A DNA stretch of 64,000 bases from the NCBI GenBank assembly GCA_016794425.1, contig JAEUHR010000004.1, positions 48,750 through 112,749 on the forward strand, read 5' to 3'. A program made the translations under genes and the position numbers. Source of the stretch: Planctomycetota bacterium (GTDB taxonomy: Bacteria > Planctomycetota > UBA1135 > UBA2386). The notes beneath the pieces were generated by a model. The model was not told the DNA's origin. It ran no database searches and saw only the letters and a program-made list of their open reading frames with translations. This document shows positions 18,964 to 29,206 of the stretch, one piece after another. Numbering within the stretch: position 1 is the first letter of the stretch; each line of letters starts with the position of its first letter.

Positions 18964-19154
18964 GGCCGCAGTCTACGGAGCGCCGTGGTGCGCCGAGAAC
19001 CGGCAACCGGCCCGGCGGCGCGCGGGCGGCGGAAATCCGCGGTCGCGGCTGCATCGGATTCGGCGGCTCGCGCCAGTTGTGCGTGGACCTGCACCGCGCG
19101 CCCACCGCGGTCGCCGTGGTCCGTCGCCCGCCAACGCCGAACCTCCCGATCCGC

Positions 19155-20438
19155 ATGGACCTCCGCCGCCTCCCCGCCCCGTTCGCGCTCGCCGTCGCCC
19201 TGGCTGCCCAGGTGCCGAACGACAGCGTGCTCGTGCTGACCACCCAGAGTGCGTTCTCGCCGCCCGAATGCGCGCTCGTGGACCCGTTGGGCGGCGGCGT
19301 CACGCCGGTGCCGCTGCTGTTCGGGCCGCTGGCCTTCGTGCCGCCCGCCGGCATCGCGGCCGACCCGGTCGATGCACAGTACCTCTGGTTCCTGAACGGC
19401 GAGACCAGCCTCGAAGCCGGCATCCGACGCGTGCCGATCGGCACGCTGGCGCTCCCGTCCGGCCCGTCGGCCGGCGCGGCCTGGACGCAGGTCGGCGGCA
19501 CGCGGATCCGCGTCGGTGCGAACCGGGTCTTCACGCTGCGCGCCGGCGGCATCGTCGAGGCGACGCCGAAGACCGGCGGGGCGCCGTTCCAGCTGCTGGT
19601 GCGGCCCGACGCGGTCGACATCGCGGTGCTCGGCAACCTGCTCTACGTCGCGTGCCGCGACGCGGCCGATCCGACCAACCCGGCGCCGCTGCTCGAACTC
19701 GACCTGCAGACCGGCGTGCAGCGCACGGTCGGCAGCTACGCCGACGTGCGCCGCGTCGCGGCCGCGGACTCGTTCGGCCTGATCGCGCTGGCGATCGACC
19801 TGCCGGGTGTGCTCGAGGTCGACGCCGTCAACGGTGCGATCGTCGGTGGCTTCCCGACCCCGGGTCCGGTCGAGGCGGTCACCTACGGCCGCTTCGGCAC
19901 GCTGGTCTACGGCATCACGCGGCCGGGCGGCTGCGACGTCTACAGCGTGCTGCGCAGCACGCCGGTGTTCTCGAGCACACAACCGGTGCTGATCGACCTC
20001 GACGCGACGCTGGCCAGGACCGCGTCGGTGGTGCCGTACGGCGCCGGCTGTGGCGCCGCAGCGGCGACCGCCTGGGTCGCGCCGACCAGCCCGCGGCTCG
20101 GCAACACCGGCTTCACGCTCGGCCTCGCCGGTGCGCCGGCGAATCTGCCGATCGGCCTGTTCCTCGGCGAGAGCCGCCTGTTCGCGTCGCTGCTCGGCGG
20201 CGCCTTGCCGATCACGCTGCAACCGCTCGCGAACGGCTGCGAACTGCTGGTCGACCCACTGGTGCCGGTGACCCTGGTCGCCGACGCTGCCGGCACGGCA
20301 TCGCTGCCGATCCCGATCCCGCTGGCGGCGACGCTCGCCGGCGTCGAGTGGGTCGGCCAGGCGTTCGTGTTCGATCCGACCGTCGGCCCGCTGTCGTTCG
20401 CCGGCACGGCCGGCGTGGCGCTGCGGCTGGACTTCTGA
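19155..20438 (+). CDS. Secreted protein, tandem paralogue A, with lineage C-terminal domain
   Basis: 427 residues from the ATG at 19155. Signal peptide: RRLPAPFALAVALAAQ. The body is beta-strand rich with a motif series like a beta-propeller or bulb domain (LYVACRDAADPTNPAP, LQTGVQRTVGSYADVRR). The last 130 residues begin at PYGAGCG and continue through LGNTGFTLGL, NGCELLVDP and LAGVEWVGQAFVF. It is clearly paralogous to the next gene: the same TVGSYADVR string and the same C-terminal motifs occur in the same order. It is the first of four same-strand genes with gaps of 30, 26 and 9 bp. The function is unknown; an exported or surface protein is likely. Confidence 0.85.
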   Translation: MDLRRLPAPFALAVALAAQVPNDSVLVLTTQSAFSPPECALVDPLGGGVTPVPLLFGPLAFVPPAGIAADPVDAQYLWFLNGETSLEAGIRRVPIGTLALPSGPSAGAAWTQVGGTRIRVGANRVFTLRAGGIVEATPKTGGAPFQLLVRPDAVDIAVLGNLLYVACRDAADPTNPAPLLELDLQTGVQRTVGSYADVRRVAAADSFGLIALAIDLPGVLEVDAVNGAIVGGFPTPGPVEAVTYGRFGTLVYGITRPGGCDVYSVLRSTPVFSSTQPVLIDLDATLARTASVVPYGAGCGAAAATAWVAPTSPRLGNTGFTLGLAGAPANLPIGLFLGESRLFASLLGGALPITLQPLANGCELLVDPLVPVTLVADAAGTASLPIPIPLAATLAGVEWVGQAFVFDPTVGPLSFAGTAGVALRLDF

Positions 20439-20468
20439 TCCCCTCTCCCTGCTTCCCGGAGCCTCGCG

Positions 20469-21725
20469 ATGAACTCCCTGCGTTGCCTCGTCCTGCTCGG
20501 CCTGACCGCGGCGCCGACCGTCGCCCAGATCCCGCACGACACCGCCGTCGTGCTCGAGACGTCCGTGCCGCAAGGCCTCAACTACACGTTCGTCGACGTG
20601 TTCGGCCGCGGCATCACGCCGGTGCTCGGGCAGAACGTGTTCCTGACGCCGCCGCCGGTCAGCGTCGCCACCGATCCGGTCGGTGCCGACTACTACTGGT
20701 TCCTGTCGACGGTCGGGCTCGCCGGCACCTGGCGCAGCAGCGTCGGCGCGCTCGGTCGGATCCAGCAGTCGGTGTGGGGCGCCTGGCTGCGCCTGCCGGG
20801 CCAGCGCCTCGAGGTCGGCGCGTCGCAGGTGTTCAGCCTGCGCGGCGATCTGGTCGAGGCGTGCCCGAAGCCGTCGACCGGACCCGGGCAGCCGGTGACG
20901 CTGTTCCAGCTCGCCGGTGCGGTCGATCTCGCGGTGGTCGGCACCAACCTCTACGTCGCGAGCTGGAACGGCGGCGCCCCGGCGCCGGTGGTCGAGTACC
21001 ACCTGCCGACCGGCCAGCAGCGCACGGTCGGCAGCTACGCGGACGTGCGGTGCATCGCCGCGTCGCCGCTGGTGCCCGAGCTGTGCCTGGGCCTCGCCAA
21101 CGGCACCGTGCAGCGCGTCGACGTCGCCACCGGTGCCGTCACGGCGACGACGGCCACCGGCCTCGGCAGCCTGGTCGCGGTCGGCTACACGCGCTTCGGC
21201 ACGCTGCTCTACGCCGATGGGCAGCAGCTGTGGAGCGAACTGGTGCCGACGGCGCCGATCCACGTCAGCACCAGCTCGATCGTCGACTTCGGCGTCGCGA
21301 CGCACCTGGTCGCCACGGCGACGCCGTTCGGCGAAGGCTGCGGCCGCGGCCGGCTCGCCGAGTGGGTGGCCAACGGCGTGCCGTCGCTCGGCAATGCGAC
21401 GTTCTCGATCGGCGTGCGCAACGCGGTGCCGACGAGCTTCGCGGTGCTGGCGATCGGCGCCGACCGGGCCGCCACGTCGGCCGGCGTGCCGCTGCCGCTG
21501 GACCTGCAGCCGATCGGCGCGCCGGGCTGCAAGCTGCTGGTCGATCCGGCGGTGCTGGCGCTGTGGCCGACGAACGTGTTCGGCGATGCCGACCAGCCGC
21601 TGCCGATTCCGAGCAACCCGGCGTTCGCCGGCATCGAGTGGAGCGGCCAGTGGATCGTGCCCGACCCGCTGGTCGCGCCGCTGGGCCTGGCGATCACGCG
21701 CGGGCTGGTCTGCGCGATCCGCTGA
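20469..21725 (+). CDS. Secreted protein, tandem paralogue B
   Basis: 418 residues. Signal peptide: MNSLRCLVLLGLTAAPTVAQ. It aligns along its whole length with the preceding protein: PVSVATDPVGADYYWFLS matches the upstream DPVDAQYLWFLN region, QRTVGSYADVR is shared exactly, and the C-terminus carries PFGEGCG, LGNATFSIGV, GCKLLVDP and FAGIEWSGQWIV. The two genes therefore arose by tandem duplication and have since diverged. It lies 26 bp upstream of the membrane-tethered sigma factor gene. No enzymatic motif is seen. Confidence 0.85.
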   Translation: MNSLRCLVLLGLTAAPTVAQIPHDTAVVLETSVPQGLNYTFVDVFGRGITPVLGQNVFLTPPPVSVATDPVGADYYWFLSTVGLAGTWRSSVGALGRIQQSVWGAWLRLPGQRLEVGASQVFSLRGDLVEACPKPSTGPGQPVTLFQLAGAVDLAVVGTNLYVASWNGGAPAPVVEYHLPTGQQRTVGSYADVRCIAASPLVPELCLGLANGTVQRVDVATGAVTATTATGLGSLVAVGYTRFGTLLYADGQQLWSELVPTAPIHVSTSSIVDFGVATHLVATATPFGEGCGRGRLAEWVANGVPSLGNATFSIGVRNAVPTSFAVLAIGADRAATSAGVPLPLDLQPIGAPGCKLLVDPAVLALWPTNVFGDADQPLPIPSNPAFAGIEWSGQWIVPDPLVAPLGLAITRGLVCAIR

Positions 21726-21751
21726 GGCTCTGAGCGAACGCGGGAGCGGCG

Positions 21752-24283
21752 ATGACCGAGAACGAGATCCACGACCTGCTGGGCGACGTGCACTGGCTGC
21801 GGGCCCTGGCCCGGCGGCTGGCGCGCGACCCCGACACCGCCGACGACCTGGTGCAGGAGGCCTGCGCGATCGCGCTGCGGCAGGACCCGCCGCCGCAGCA
21901 CTGGCGGTCGTGGCTGGTCGGCGTGCTGCGCACGCTGGTGCGCGCCGAGCGGCGCGGCACGGCCGTGCGGCAGCAGCGGCACGCGGCCGCCGCGCGCGAT
22001 GCCGAAGCCGAAGCGACCGAGACGCTGGTGCAGCGCGCCGAAGTCCAGCAGCTGCTGGCGCAGGCCGTGCTGCAGCTCGACGAGCCGTACCGCGCCACCG
22101 TGCTGCTGCGCTACTTCGAGGGCGAGCCGCCGCGTCGCATCGCCGCGCGCCACGGCGTGCCGGTCGCGACCGTGCACAGCCGCCTGCAGCGCGCCGTGCA
22201 GCAGCTGCGCGAACGGCTCGACCGCGACGCCGGCGGCCGCGCGCGGTGGCTCGCGCTGACCGTGCCGTTCGCCTGGCCGCGGCGCGCTCCGGCCCCGACT
22301 GCGGCCGCTGCCGGCACGCTGCGGCTGTCGTTCGCGGCGGTGCTGGTGCTCGCGGTCGGCGGCGCCGTGTGGTGGTGGCGCACCGCGCCGGCGCTGCCGG
22401 CGCCGGCGCCCGCAACGACCACCGCGGCCGTGCCCGCAGCCGCGCCGGTGCCGCCGCCGGCGGCACCCACGGTGGCCGCCGAACGCACGGCCGTGCCGCC
22501 GCCGGCAGTCGATGCGGCTGCGCCCGCACTGCACGCGGTGCGCGGCCGGGTCGTCGATGCCGACGGCCGCGCCGTCGCCGGCCTCGCGATCTCGGCGCTG
22601 CTGTCCTCGTCGCCGGCGGTCGCCGACGCGCGCGAGCTGCGCGCGCGCTTCGCCGAGAGTGGCGCCGACGGTGGGTTCGTCGGCGAGCTGCCCGGGCCGG
22701 TGGCGTTCCTGATGGTGCAGGACCGGAACCTCGCGAACGTGATGATCGGCACCTGGACGCCCGGTTCGACGGTCGTGCCGCTGCTCGTCGTCGCGCCGCG
22801 CCTGCGGCTCGCCGGTCGCGCCAGCACGGCCGACGGTCGCCCGCTGCTGTCGGGCCGGATCCAGCTCGAGCTGCCCGAGGACTTCTGGACCCGGTTGCCG
22901 GCGCGCGTCGACCGCGCGCAGGCGCTCGACTGCGCGACCGAGATCGCCGCCGACGGCGCGTTCGCGTTCGACGAAGTGCCGCTGGTGGCCGGCGCCGGGC
23001 TGGTGGCGACCGCCGCCGGGTGCACGCCGCTGCGGCTGCCGCTGCCGCCGGCGTCGACCGCCGACCTGCGGCTCGTGCTCGACGTCGCCGAAGCGCCGCG
23101 CGATGCGGTGCACGGCCGTGTGCAGGACGCCTTTGGCCGGCCGGCGGCCGGCGCGATGGTGGCCTGCGGCGCCGAGGCGACGCGCAGTGGCAGCGACGGC
23201 ACGTTCGTGCTGTTGCGGCCCCGCGCCGGCGCCGCCGCCGCCGTCGTCGCCGCGGTGCCGGGCTTCGCGCCGGCGCACGGCACGCTGCCGGCGCCCGGCG
23301 CAACCGACTTCGTGCTGCAGCTCGGCGCCGAAACCGCGACCCTGCACGGCCGCGTCGTCGATGCGGCGGGTCCGGTGGCCGGCGCGCGGGTCTGGATCGC
23401 CGATCCGACGCCGTTCGGCGCCTGGGCCGGCAGCGCGATGCTGCTCGAGTACTTCGTCGGCGGTGCCCCGCTCGCGGCCGGCGTCGAGGAAGCGCGCAGC
23501 GCGCCGCCGGCGGCCGAACGCAGCCTCGGCACGAGCTGGACGTTCGCCAGCGCGCCGACGGCGGCGTTCGCGTTCGCGACCACCGACGGCGACGGCCGCT
23601 TCACGGTGCCCGGCCTGCTCGACCGCGCCTACGTGCTGCGCGCATTCGATCCGCGCACCGGCCGCTTCGGCGAACGCGCGGCGGTCCGCGCCGCGACCGA
23701 CACCACGCTGGTGCTCGACGACGGCATCGTGCGCGACCTGCGCGGCCGCGTCGTCGCCGTCGACGGCACGCCGATCGCCGCGGCGCGGCTGCGGCAGCGA
23801 TTCGAGCTGTTCCGCCACCGTGCGCGGCTGCCGGCCGGCACGCGCGAGACGATCCACATGCTCGACGGCCCGTCGGCCGCGACCGACGCCGACGGCCGCT
23901 TCGCGCTGCTCGGCGTGCGGCTGCCGGAATCGATGTTCGTCGTCGAAGGCGACACGATCCTGCCGACGCAGCACTCGGTCACGGCCGCCGGGCAGGAGCT
24001 GCAGGTCACGGTCGAGCGGCGCTGCGCGGTCGAGGTCGTGCTGCCCGCTGCCGGCGAGGCCGACGCGGTCCGGTGCCGCGACGCTGCCGGCAAGGCCGTG
24101 TGGCTCGCGCGCGTGCACGGCGGCGGCATGGACGCGCAGCCGGTGCTGCCGCTGCACGACGGCCGCAGCGGCGTGTTCGTCGTCGGCGAACGGGCCGCGA
24201 CGCTGGTGCTGATGCGGTCCGACGTGCCGGTGCGCGAAGTGCCGATCGTGCCCGATCCGCAGCGCACGACCTTCGTCCAGTAG
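21752..24283 (+). CDS. ECF sigma factor fused to a membrane helix and carboxypeptidase-regulatory-like domains
   Basis: 843 residues in one frame. Residues 10-70 are sigma-2 (LRALARRLARDPDTADDLVQ, then WRSWLVGVLRTLVRAERR). Residues 98-157 are sigma-4 (LDEPYRATVLLRYFEGE, then RIAARHGVPVATVHSRLQRA). A transmembrane helix follows at 190-207 (LRLSFAAVLVLAVGGAVWW), then a Pro/Ala linker to about 258. At least four CarboxypepD_reg/SpaA-like beta-sandwich repeats begin near residues 261, 451, 531 and 661 (e.g. VRGRVVDADGRAVAG, VHGRVQDAFGRPAAG, LHGRVVDAAGPVAGA). The sigma part faces the cytoplasm and the sandwich domains the outside, so sensing and promoter selection are in one polypeptide. Release of the sigma domain, perhaps by proteolysis, is inferred. 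ECFs with C-terminal extensions are known in Planctomycetota. It lies between secreted protein genes, its likely targets. Confidence 0.9.
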   Translation: MTENEIHDLLGDVHWLRALARRLARDPDTADDLVQEACAIALRQDPPPQHWRSWLVGVLRTLVRAERRGTAVRQQRHAAAARDAEAEATETLVQRAEVQQLLAQAVLQLDEPYRATVLLRYFEGEPPRRIAARHGVPVATVHSRLQRAVQQLRERLDRDAGGRARWLALTVPFAWPRRAPAPTAAAAGTLRLSFAAVLVLAVGGAVWWWRTAPALPAPAPATTTAAVPAAAPVPPPAAPTVAAERTAVPPPAVDAAAPALHAVRGRVVDADGRAVAGLAISALLSSSPAVADARELRARFAESGADGGFVGELPGPVAFLMVQDRNLANVMIGTWTPGSTVVPLLVVAPRLRLAGRASTADGRPLLSGRIQLELPEDFWTRLPARVDRAQALDCATEIAADGAFAFDEVPLVAGAGLVATAAGCTPLRLPLPPASTADLRLVLDVAEAPRDAVHGRVQDAFGRPAAGAMVACGAEATRSGSDGTFVLLRPRAGAAAAVVAAVPGFAPAHGTLPAPGATDFVLQLGAETATLHGRVVDAAGPVAGARVWIADPTPFGAWAGSAMLLEYFVGGAPLAAGVEEARSAPPAAERSLGTSWTFASAPTAAFAFATTDGDGRFTVPGLLDRAYVLRAFDPRTGRFGERAAVRAATDTTLVLDDGIVRDLRGRVVAVDGTPIAAARLRQRFELFRHRARLPAGTRETIHMLDGPSAATDADGRFALLGVRLPESMFVVEGDTILPTQHSVTAAGQELQVTVERRCAVEVVLPAAGEADAVRCRDAAGKAVWLARVHGGGMDAQPVLPLHDGRSGVFVVGERAATLVLMRSDVPVREVPIVPDPQRTTFVQ

Positions 24284-24292
24284 CTTCCTGCC

Positions 24293-26374
24293 ATGGTCCC
24301 GCTCCGCCTGTTGTCGTGGTTCTTCGGCGCACTGCTGCTCGCCGCGTCGCCGCTGCGCGCGACCTGGTCGATCGTGATCGTCGACCTCGCGACCGGCGAA
24401 GTCGCGATCGGCATCGCCACCTGCCTGACCGGTTTCGACCTGCGGCCGGCGACCATCGTCGTCGTGCCGGGCTACGGCGCCGCGGCCGCGCAGTCGTTTA
24501 TCGGGCCGCTGGCGCTGCGCGAACTGATCCGCAGCGGCCTGCTCGCCGGCACGCCGGCGGCGCAGATCCTGGCGCAGCTGGCCGCGGCCGACGTCGGCCA
24601 CCAGGGCCGCCAGTACGGCATCGTCGGGCTCACGCACGGCGAGGTCACGTTCACCGGCAGCCAGGCGTTCGCGTGGGCCGGCGGCGTCACCGGCCAGGTC
24701 GGCTCGCTGCGCTACGCGATCCAGGGCAACGTGCTGACCGGCCAGCCGGTGGTCGCCGCGGCGGAACTCGCGCTGCAGACCACGCCGGGCTCGATCGCCG
24801 ACCGGCTGATGGCGGCGATGGCCGCGGCGCGCCAGTACGGCGGCGACGGCCGCTGCTCGTGCTCGGTCAGCCAGCCGACAGCGTGCGGCTCGCCGCCGGC
24901 CAGCTTCACGAAGTCGGCGCACATCGCGCAGATGGTCGTCAGCCGGCCCAGCGACGTCGATGCGCCGTGCACCACCGCGCTGGGCTGCGGCGCCGGCCAG
25001 TACTGGCTCGACCTCAACGTCGCCAACCAGCCGGCGACGGCGCTCGATCCGGTGCTGCAGCTGCAGGCGCTCTACGCGAACTGGCAGGCGCAGCAGGTCG
25101 GCCGCGCCGACCACTTCGCGTCGGGCGTCGCGCTGAGCACGAGCACGCTGCGCAGCAACGGCAGCGACACGCTCTACGGCACCGTCACGCTGCGCGACGC
25201 GAGCGGGGCCCCGATCGCCGGCACGCCGACCGTCACGGTGGGCCTGCGCGCGGGCTCGACCGCGACCGGCGTGGTGTTCTCGCCGGTCACGCCGCAGGCG
25301 AACGGCACCTACACGTTCACGATGCGCGCCGGCTTCGGCGCCGGGCAGGCGATCCTCGACGTCGCCGCGGTCGACGCGGTCGGCCGCGTCGGCATCTGGC
25401 CGCAGCCGGTGGTCGCGATCGGCGATCCGTTCGGTCCGTGCGGCCGCGGCGCGATCGCCGACGGTGCCGGCGGCGTGTTCGACGCGCTGTCGGTGTCGGG
25501 CAGCGGCGGCAGCAACCGCGTCGTCGAGGTCGGCTACGGCCAGCCGTTCTCGCTGGCGCTGGCGCCGCCGGTCGGCGTGCCGACGGGCTTCCCGGTCGGC
25601 CTGTTCGCGCTGTGGCTGCACGTCGGCGCCAACCCGGTCGGCTTCGAGGTGCCGCTCGGTGCCGGCAACGGCGCGCTGTGCTTCACGCCGGCGCCGTTCG
25701 TGCCGGCGCCGACGCTGGTGCTCGCCGACACGTTCGGGCTCGGCGGTCTGCTGCCGGCGGTGCCGGCGCCCTGGTCGCTGAACCTGCCGGGTGTGCCGGC
25801 GGTGTTCGACGCGGTGCTGCAGGCGGTCATGGTCAGCGATGCGGCGGCGACGTTCGCGGCGACCAATGCCGTGCTGCTGCGGTTCGTGCCGCTGCCGGCG
25901 CCGGTGATCACGCAGGTGCTGCCGATCGCGGCGGTCGCCGGGCAGACCGTGACCGTGACCGGCACGAACTTCGTCAGCGGCATGCAGGCGACGCTGGCCG
26001 GCAGTCCGCTGGCGCTCGGCCCGGTCGCGCCCGTGCAGACGTCGTTCGTGATGCCGCCCGGCGTGCCGTGCGACGCGCCGCTCGTGCTCGTGAACCCGGG
26101 CTCGGGGCCGGCGCAGCGCGTCGTCAATCCGACGCCGCTGGTGACCAGCGTGCAGCCGGCGTCGGGCACGCGCTTCGGCGGCACGACGGTCGTGCTGGTG
26201 GGGCAGAACCTGCTCGGCACCACGGTGACGTTCGGCGGCGTGCCGCTGCAGGTGGTGGCGCAGACCGCGACCACGATCGTCGGCACGACGCCGGCCGGCG
26301 CACCGGGCGCGGCGGCGGTGCAGGTCGTGCATCCGAACGGCTGCCAGAGCGCGGCGACGTTCACGTACTTCTGA
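24293..26374 (+). CDS. Secreted DUF1028 (Ntn-hydrolase-like) protein with Ig-like and IPT/TIG domains
   Basis: 693 residues, ATG at 24293, 9 bp after the sigma fusion gene. The signal peptide (LLSWFFGALLLAASPLRA) is cleaved just before the DUF1028 start ATWSIVIVDLATGEVAIGIAT, which fits the family's habit of an N-terminal nucleophile-like fold. DUF1028 covers about residues 23-230 (GGDGRCSCSVSQ near its end). An invasin/bacterial Ig-like domain follows at about 270-370 (LYGTVTLRDASGAPIAGTP). Next comes a region related to the lineage C-terminal domain (about 385-540), and then two IPT/TIG repeats (VITQVLPIAAVAGQTVTVTG and LVTSVQPASGTRFGGTTVVL). The activity of DUF1028 proteins is unproven. 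Co-expression with the sigma gene is inferred from the spacing. Confidence 0.88.
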   Translation: MVPLRLLSWFFGALLLAASPLRATWSIVIVDLATGEVAIGIATCLTGFDLRPATIVVVPGYGAAAAQSFIGPLALRELIRSGLLAGTPAAQILAQLAAADVGHQGRQYGIVGLTHGEVTFTGSQAFAWAGGVTGQVGSLRYAIQGNVLTGQPVVAAAELALQTTPGSIADRLMAAMAAARQYGGDGRCSCSVSQPTACGSPPASFTKSAHIAQMVVSRPSDVDAPCTTALGCGAGQYWLDLNVANQPATALDPVLQLQALYANWQAQQVGRADHFASGVALSTSTLRSNGSDTLYGTVTLRDASGAPIAGTPTVTVGLRAGSTATGVVFSPVTPQANGTYTFTMRAGFGAGQAILDVAAVDAVGRVGIWPQPVVAIGDPFGPCGRGAIADGAGGVFDALSVSGSGGSNRVVEVGYGQPFSLALAPPVGVPTGFPVGLFALWLHVGANPVGFEVPLGAGNGALCFTPAPFVPAPTLVLADTFGLGGLLPAVPAPWSLNLPGVPAVFDAVLQAVMVSDAAATFAATNAVLLRFVPLPAPVITQVLPIAAVAGQTVTVTGTNFVSGMQATLAGSPLALGPVAPVQTSFVMPPGVPCDAPLVLVNPGSGPAQRVVNPTPLVTSVQPASGTRFGGTTVVLVGQNLLGTTVTFGGVPLQVVAQTATTIVGTTPAGAPGAAAVQVVHPNGCQSAATFTYF

Positions 26375-27873: not shown

Positions 27874-28827
27874 ATGAGCGAACCCGCCCTGCGCATCCAG
27901 AACCTGAGCAAGTCGTTCGGCACGACGAAGGCGCTCGACGACGTCGGTTTCGACGTGCCGCAGGGGTCGATCTTCGGCCTGCTCGGCCCGAACGGCGCCG
28001 GCAAGACGACGCTGTTCTCGATCGCCGCCGGCTTCCTGCGCGCCGATGCCGGCTCGCTGCGCGTGCTCGGCGTCGACATCGCGCACATCGCCGAACTGCA
28101 GGGCCGCATGACGATCCTGCCGCAGGACGCGTCGTTCCAGAAGAACGTGCCGATCCTCGACCAGCTGGTGTTCCTGCGCCAGCTCGACGGCAGCGACCGC
28201 GCGACCGCCGAACGCGAGGTCACCGAGGCGCTCGAGGCGGTCGGCATCGCGCAGTACCGCAAGCGCGGCATCCACGCGCTGTCGCACGGCATGCTGAAGC
28301 GCATGGGCATCGCGCAGGCGTTCCTCGGCCGGCCCGAGGTGATCCTGCTCGACGAACCGACGTCGGGCCTCGATCCGAAGAACGCGAGCCAGATCCGCGA
28401 ACTGGTGCGCGAGCTGCAGCGCTCGCGGCGTGTGACGACCGTGATCAGTTCGCACTACCTGCTCGAGATCGAGGAGCTGTGCGACCACGTCGCGATCCTC
28501 GACAAGGGCAAGGTCGTCGTCAGCGGTTCGCTCGACGAGATCCGCGCGCAGGGCCGCGTGCTGAAGCTGGAACTGCCGCGTGTGCTGACGGAGGCCGAAG
28601 TGGCGCGGATCGCGGCGGTGGCCGGCGTGGCCGCGGTCGTGCCGCGGCACGCGCGGCGCTACGAGCTGACGCTGGCGAGCGGCGACGACGCCGTCGTGAG
28701 GGACGCCCTGCGCGCGCTGCTCGACCTCGGCATCGCGCCGCGGTCGCTGTCGCAGGGGAATTCGCTCCTAGACTTCTTCCTGTCGGTGACCGGCGACGGC
28801 GCGGCCACCGCGCCGGTCAGTGCTTGA
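27874..28827 (+). CDS. ABC transporter ATP-binding protein
   Basis: 317 residues. Walker A GPNGAGKTT lies near residue 42, the Q-loop is at ILPQDASF, the signature is LSHGMLKRMGIAQAF, Walker B is VILLDEPTSGLD, and the H-loop is SSHYLLEIEEL. The signature reads LSHGM where LSGGQ is usual, a common degeneracy in ABC-2 exporters. A C-terminal regulatory segment of about 80 residues follows the nucleotide-binding domain. It pairs with the permease 4 bp upstream. Its 3' end overlaps the convergent lipoprotein gene by 11 bp. Confidence 0.96.
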   Translation: MSEPALRIQNLSKSFGTTKALDDVGFDVPQGSIFGLLGPNGAGKTTLFSIAAGFLRADAGSLRVLGVDIAHIAELQGRMTILPQDASFQKNVPILDQLVFLRQLDGSDRATAEREVTEALEAVGIAQYRKRGIHALSHGMLKRMGIAQAFLGRPEVILLDEPTSGLDPKNASQIRELVRELQRSRRVTTVISSHYLLEIEELCDHVAILDKGKVVVSGSLDEIRAQGRVLKLELPRVLTEAEVARIAAVAGVAAVVPRHARRYELTLASGDDAVVRDALRALLDLGIAPRSLSQGNSLLDFFLSVTGDGAATAPVSA

Positions 28828-29206
28828 TCGGCACCGCGCAGCCGCCCTTGCCCTTGCAGCTGTTCTTGGCCTTGCAGCCGTTGTCGCCGGAACCGCAGCC
28901 GCCGAGCCCCTTGCAGGTGTTCTGACCCTTGCACGAGTGGTGCGCGACCGTCGCGCAGCCGCCCTTGCCCTTGCAGGAGTTCTTGCCGGCACAGCCGTTG
29001 TCGCCGGCCTTGCAGCCGCCCTGGCCCTTGCAGGCGTTGTGGCCCTTGCAGGCGTTCTTGGCGGCGTCCGCGACCGGCGTCGGGTTGGCGGCCGGCGCAT
29101 TGGTCGGCGTGCTTTCCTTGCTGCACGAGGTCAGCGTGGTCGCGGCGGTGCCGAGCAGCAAGCCGGACACGGCGGCGGAGAGAAGGACGGACTTGGTGGT
29201 CTTCAT
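28817..29206 (-). CDS. 12-cysteine tandem-repeat lipoprotein, bufferin-like
   Basis: 129 residues, ATG at 29206. The signal peptide has a lipobox L-T-S-C with Cys28 as the lipidated residue. After a short Pro/Thr linker come two tandem units, each with six cysteines at identical spacing: Cys53, 59, 65, 72, 78, 84 and Cys92, 98, 104, 111, 117, 123 (gaps 6, 6, 7, 6, 6). The unit theme is NACKGxNxCKGxGGC, rich in Lys, Gly and Asn. This 6+6 pattern resembles the 12-Cys class of bufferins, Cys-rich secreted copper-binding RiPPs matured by MNIO (DUF692) enzymes, whose operons often contain DoxX proteins. A DoxX gene is divergent here. No MNIO gene lies in the window, and a lipid anchor would be unusual. 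Metal binding is inferred. Confidence 0.85.
   Translation of the reverse strand: MKTTKSVLLSAAVSGLLLGTAATTLTSCSKESTPTNAPAANPTPVADAAKNACKGHNACKGQGGCKAGDNGCAGKNSCKGKGGCATVAHHSCKGQNTCKGLGGCGSGDNGCKAKNSCKGKGGCAVPIKH

Follow-up and report, generated by a model that had tools for sequence, protein, structure and literature searches.

How is an extracytoplasmic function (ECF) sigma factor held in check when no anti-sigma factor is found beside it, and do the genes that adjoin it belong to its circuit? These questions are raised by a 64,000-nucleotide stretch of a Planctomycetota bacterium (assembly GCA_016794425.1, contig JAEUHR010000004.1, positions 48,750 to 112,749; hereafter the window). Four plus-strand open reading frames at 19155-20438, 20469-21725, 21752-24283 and 24293-26374 are separated here by gaps of 30, 26 and 9 bp, coordinates that agree with an original prediction, made from the sequence, of one four-gene operon. 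The first two encode paralogues, P1 (427 amino acids) and P2 (418 amino acids), predicted to be secreted propeller proteins; the third encodes an 843-amino-acid ECF sigma factor predicted to be tethered to the membrane; and the fourth encodes a DUF1028/Invasin_D3/TIG protein. The P gene or genes and the ECF gene form a unit kept in five of seven loci, and we see an even chance that this unit works as a one-component ECF switch, tethered to the membrane, which probably drives the operon that encodes it and thereby supplies the propellers.

The ECF protein and its predicted anchor

The ECF protein matched Sigma70_r2 (PF04542), Sigma70_r4_2 (PF08281) and CarboxypepD_reg (PF13620) above the whole-protein Pfam cut-offs, and thus carries the sigma2 and sigma4 domains that mark ECF sigma factors; TIGR02937 also scored 63.7 bits against a cut-off of 42.9. 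The sigma domains occupy residues 1-158 (21752-22225, plus strand, with Pfam matches at residues 15-68 and 100-152), and this part has a sequence match in the PDB to Mycobacterium tuberculosis SigL (6dv9, E = 4.8e-08). CarboxypepD_reg scored 70.6 bits over the whole protein (cut-off 32.3), in four stretches each of which has E up to 1 when taken alone. These profile matches place sigma2-sigma4 and a carboxypeptidase-regulatory-like repeat region in one chain.

Between the two parts the AlphaFold model has a predicted juxtamembrane helix at residues 163-174 (22238-22273, plus strand), including a conserved tryptophan (W166, a tryptophan in 46/48 homologues), followed by a predicted transmembrane helix at residues 187-209 (22310-22378, plus strand). 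The latter was modelled at low confidence (predicted local distance difference test, pLDDT, of 42-57 for the block), and in the sequence itself the hydrophobic stretch spans residues 184-202. Only about 26 residues separate the last sigma4 helix from the transmembrane helix in the model. Among 48 homologues, the most hydrophobic 19-residue stretch of this region scored 1.6 or more in 45, and in none did it fall below 1.3. Residues 259-843 (22526-24280, plus strand) form the predicted ectodomain of carboxypeptidase-regulatory-like beta-sandwiches, most of it modelled confidently. Membrane anchoring, with the repeats outside the cell, is therefore predicted from the model, and the original prediction of sigma domains, anchor and at least four such repeats in a single polypeptide was borne out to this extent.

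It might instead be that the repeats lie inside the cell, or that the protein works uncleaved as a membrane-bound partner of the holoenzyme. The low confidence of the transmembrane helix would allow this, but among 84 sigma proteins of 450 amino acids or longer from 94 loci, 82 have a hydrophobic, transmembrane-like segment (19 residues with a mean hydrophobicity of at least 1.5) no more than 200 residues beyond sigma4 (two ECFs being counted twice, as L163 and L253 are the same locus), and we regard this alternative as very unlikely.

No zinc-finger, anti-sigma or FecR-type Pfam match was found in the ECF protein at E up to 1, and the two genes adjoining it gave no anti-sigma Pfam match, in line with the earlier claim that a separate anti-sigma factor is lacking.

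Conservation of the propeller-ECF pair and its upstream element

A scan of named species genomes, covering the best 80 of 349 candidates, yielded 14 full-length ECF relatives (L151-L164). Relatives with at least 40% ECF identity, together with the window, make up seven distinct clade loci, L155 and L091 lying on the same contig. In five of the seven full-length loci a P-family gene stands 9-26 bp upstream of the ECF gene on the same strand. The order is P1-P2-ECF in the window (26 bp between P2 and ECF) and in L151 (gaps of 27 and 9), P2-ECF in L152 (gap of 18), P1-ECF in L155/L091 (gap of 19) and P2-ECF in L160 (gap of 12, the contig edge cutting what appears to be a further P-family gene, of which the 3' end is left). 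Directly upstream of the ECF gene, there is no P-family gene at any of the eight loci that are more distant (L156-L159 and L161-L164). As a side observation, L151 is CAMAUH010000039.1, and the same content occurs in G151, a genome of the window's family, so that the name Candidatus Kuenenia stuttgartiensis on the record may be wrong.

When the called genes of the seven loci were compared (the window by its 9-36 kb part, matches at E 1e-8), the five linked loci shared P and ECF genes and otherwise had different flanks. The exceptions were an ABC-ATPase pair of 25% identity between the window and L151, placed differently in the two loci, and the match of a short L091 ECF to the ECF genes of L160; in addition, one window gene matched a gene of the unlinked L153 at 30%. 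ECF identity is 38-45% between the window, L091, L151, L152 and L160, apart from 64% between L151 and L152. The two P-less loci, L153 and L154, have flanks in common, as expected of close relatives, their ECFs being 70% identical.

A tree of 46 rows placed all 11 ECFs that were scored as linked on one branch (support 100/100) of 24 rows, 13 of which belong to no group, and the two unlinked ECFs in a sister group (85/75). Five of the linked rows come from the loci above, and six (P0002, P0003, P0005, P0006, P0007 and P0020) were provisionally assigned from P and ECF contigs of equal size (12238, 6702, 9960, 26223 twice, and 7213), a criterion that under-detects linkage, the linked L151 and L152 being unmatched among the P-family matches listed. 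A single origin of the linkage fits this tree and needs no repeated selection, and the adjacency could thus be inherited gene order with no functional link; the DUF1028 gene beside the ECF gene looks like just such a chance neighbour. The pair nevertheless persists between loci whose ECFs are 38-45% identical and whose remaining neighbours are not the same, and we find this explanation highly improbable.

The distribution across genomes also speaks, in part, for the switch. Among the matches listed from 154 genomes searched, clade ECFs stood out by score, with eight places (one truncated) at 849 bits or more in seven genomes and the next at 632; P-family genes were present in 16/154 genomes overall and in 6/7 of the clade-ECF genomes. 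These searches scored part of the candidates in each genome (11 for the P family, 6 for the clade ECF and 31 in a further search). Since 15 of the 16 P-family genomes belong to the window's family, relatedness explains part of the co-occurrence. One might suppose that P1 and P2 are the sensing subunits: having bound a ligand or surface, they would attach to the ECF ectodomain, and the switch would read ligand-loaded propellers instead of just producing propellers. We consider this possible but rather doubtful: 10 of the 16 P-family genomes have no such ECF among the matches listed, and a shared fold shows no function.

A putative promoter or regulatory element, consisting of a GGAAA box and GCATCGGAT, lies at 19031-19059 of the window (plus strand; the 9-mer at 19051-19059). 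GCATCGGAT occurs upstream of the first gene in the window, L151, L152 and L155, that is, in all four propeller-first operons with upstream sequence, the L160 contig ending short. When four upstream regions were drawn at random from the same genomes, out of small pools of 240, 12, 30 and 29 regions, they had some 9-mer in common in 55 of 200,000 draws. Because the 9-mer is common to all four operons, it suggests autoregulation, and judging by sequence it is likely an autoregulatory promoter. In L154, whose ECF has no P gene, GGAACC...GCATCGGAA stands 40 nt before the ECF gene, and that genome holds 4 sites of the GGAA-type pattern in total, as compared to 2 for the reversed-pattern control. In six genomes, GGAA-N13-18-GCATCGGA retrieved 20 sites, as against 4 with the pattern reversed. 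Of the 20 sites, 11 fall within called genes; four precede a called same-strand start by up to 200 nt, and two of those four belong to clade operons (the window and the L154 contig). The pattern misses the L151, L152 and L155 sites because their −35-like half differs.

Of 12 P-family genes that do not stand beside a clade ECF, 11 had testable upstream sequence, and only L239, whose genome also has a clade ECF, came within one mismatch of the 9-mer. Across the whole family, no two-box promoter pair at fixed spacing reached five upstream regions. A wider regulon is not evident in the window's own genome, since it holds just 2 full sites. It could still be that another signal drives the ECF and that P1 and P2 are adhesin-like cargo among the many targets of a wider regulon; the genome has about 20 loci matching the ECF, and tethered ECFs have varied neighbours, so that these neighbours may be ordinary targets. 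Against this, one of the two full promoter-like sites is that of the P1-P2-ECF operon itself, although weaker sites would be missed, and we judge such a regulon decidedly unlikely.

Two further six-mers, the best of 2581 tested, were more frequent in the 130 nt preceding tethered ECF genes than in the 130 nt preceding control genes (loci L088-L280): CGATTT (11/76 vs 8/517) and CGGCAT (18/76 vs 33/517).

A candidate one-component switch

We propose the following scheme for the membrane-tethered switch. With no built-in or adjacent anti-sigma factor found, tethering to the membrane would itself keep the sigma domain off RNA polymerase, giving the off state. A change at the cell surface would be sensed by the beta-sandwich rod, perhaps via bound propellers, and the signal would lead to cleavage near or within the membrane. 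This release step is proposed because of the analogy with IutY and the actinobacterial groups described below, and because an M50 site-2-type protease (split domain, 677-amino-acid frame) is encoded elsewhere in the genome. The freed sigma fragment would then start transcription at the conserved upstream element, so that P1, P2 and the ECF rise together.

A stronger version, close to what the original prediction had suggested, is that the sigma factor serves as its own receptor and its own anti-sigma factor, the rod reading the secreted propellers and release re-expressing them, while the genome's many other tethered sigma factors would each read a surface input of their own. We think this version unlikely. 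If true, such a closed surface-inventory loop would be a new class of envelope signalling.

Several points weigh against the switch. The predicted transmembrane helix has a pLDDT of just 42-57, and the positive-inside signal is modest, with more lysine and arginine before than after the segment in 28 of 48 homologues and equal numbers in 8. The sister ECFs L153 and L154 have no P gene, and the 9-mer is absent at L153. On the tree, 22 of 500 trials with shuffled labels gave clustering just as tight, only two unlinked rows being known. The ten listed P-family genomes without a clade ECF also count here, as do two searched genomes of the same genus with neither gene at the cut-offs used. As for the promoter, L151, L152 and L155 have a weak −35-like half (distances of 18 to 22 nt), and the own genome holds just 2 full sites, one of them at the window operon. 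Finally, GCATC[GC]GA stands before 7/76 tethered ECFs (one of them, L154, of the clade) as compared to 6/517 control genes; since it also precedes other tethered ECFs, the upstream element is not confined to the propeller unit.

Three published accounts (PMC8999054, PMC8567305 and PMC8103513) allow the ECF protein to be set beside known systems. IutY of Pseudomonas putida (ECF243) is a sigma factor fused to a membrane anti-sigma factor and activated by Prc and RseP cleavage; when truncated, it no longer needs its signal for activity (PMC8999054). Like IutY, the window's ECF would have its sigma factor, a membrane segment and a part outside the cell on a single chain, the latter two as predicted. 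The fused part of IutY as described there is, however, the anti-sigma factor of iron cell-surface signalling, whereas that of the window's ECF is a predicted CarboxypepD_reg-like rod in which Pfam, at E up to 1, retrieved no anti-sigma domain. The actinobacterial groups ECF48, ECF52 and ECF53 carry a C-terminal transmembrane extension and a zinc-finger anti-sigma-like domain, and in SCO4117 a proline-rich stretch is present together with a carbohydrate-binding domain outside the cell (PMC8999054). The window's ECF resembles these groups in its C-terminal extension with a transmembrane helix, predicted at low model confidence, and differs in phylum and in having no detected zinc-finger domain.

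In planctomycetes, ECFs with WD40 repeats have been described (PMC8567305). These share with the window's ECF a planctomycete expansion of ECF paralogues with beta-rich extensions; they differ in that the window's propellers are separate genes with predicted signal peptides and its fused repeats are beta-sandwiches. N-terminal extensions before sigma2 are described for ECF87-89 (PMC8103513), whereas the first helix of the window's ECF starts at residue 3 of the model. Transmembrane-fused ECFs are thus already known, and by domain matches the window's ECF lacks the zinc-finger or FecR-type domains of those proteins. Our literature search found no ECF fused to carboxypeptidase-regulatory-like repeats; the major ECF classification and planctomycete genome papers were outside its scope, and an earlier description is possible there. 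Planctomycetota carry many ECFs with unexplained extensions, and for one subgroup of them the topology has now been predicted, a conserved partner family recognised and a candidate promoter proposed, which makes the question of ectodomain sensing testable.

Neighbouring genes and the wider family

The protein of 24293-26374 (plus strand) has the domain content first proposed for it, with DUF1028 (PF06267, 92.4 bits vs 26.2), Invasin_D3 and TIG above the Pfam cut-off, TIG in two stretches. The gene itself lies outside the conserved unit: none of its seven orthologues (53-65% identity over its length) adjoins an ECF, and it is absent from the four other linked loci within the sequence covered. 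The proposed operon therefore stands for the P-ECF linkage and falls for the ECF-DUF1028 linkage, and the DUF1028 gene rides along beside an ECF in this genome only. In two near cases, the L102 ECF is about 7 kb from a DUF1028 gene, and in L158 a DUF1028 homologue precedes a tethered ECF by about 4.5 kb, with two genes between.

In the own genome the ECF had 21 matches; these count the gene itself and, twice over, one open reading frame, and so come to about 20 loci, one of which (C41) matches in the repeats only. Tethered ECFs in general showed no excess of secreted neighbours over control genes, whether upstream (27/82 vs 212/656), on the same strand within 100 bp (13/82 vs 84/635) or downstream (7/74 vs 85/625), genes being called in-house for these counts and signal peptides recognised by a crude hydrophobicity rule (the 82 include the L163/L253 duplicate). 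None of the other tethered ECFs in the 94-locus set has a P-family gene directly upstream. Since DUF1028 orthologues do not stand beside ECFs and secreted neighbours are not generally enriched, the propeller-ECF unit is specific to this ECF's clade and not general to tethered ECFs. Two P-family genes lie near a different kind of long sigma protein, in L088 (2826-7364) 174 nt downstream on the same strand and in L235 (4706-9218) convergent with a 22-nt gap.

P1 (19155-20438) and P2 (20469-21725), both on the plus strand, are 40-42% identical and have N-termini that resemble signal peptides ending before AQVP/AQIP, which supports the view of tandem paralogues with predicted secretion. We took 19155 as the P1 start, in place of the 19083 of the gene caller, because the family signal peptide fits there. 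Q20 and P22 are identical in all 55 rows of the P-family alignment and A19 in 52/55, and 50/55 rows passed a crude rule for a hydrophobic N-terminus. Neither protein (P1 scanned from residue 11) matched a Pfam or NCBIfam family above cut-off. P2 is modelled as an NHL/YWTD-type propeller (residues 20-281) followed by a C-terminal domain (about 281-418), and a propeller fold is predicted for P1 by homology; Foldseek matches of P2 to G-beta were set aside for their high root-mean-square deviation. The extracellular propeller domain of PknD from M. tuberculosis (1rwi) is fused to a kinase, whereas P1 and P2 are separate proteins, also with a C-terminal domain.

P2 has 19 matches in its own genome and up to 57 in another genome (G016). 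Its C-terminal domain of about 130 residues (21309-21722) recurs on many otherwise different proteins, and in the loci scanned, many of them chosen for matching P2, it ends within 46 residues of the C-terminus in 36/36 distinct proteins; it may be an export or anchoring domain.

Further along the window, 28817-29206 on the minus strand encodes a small protein that starts like a lipoprotein and contains repeated CKGxxxCKGxGGC-like segments, and the N-terminal stretch of a protein at L127 resembles it, as compared over the start only.

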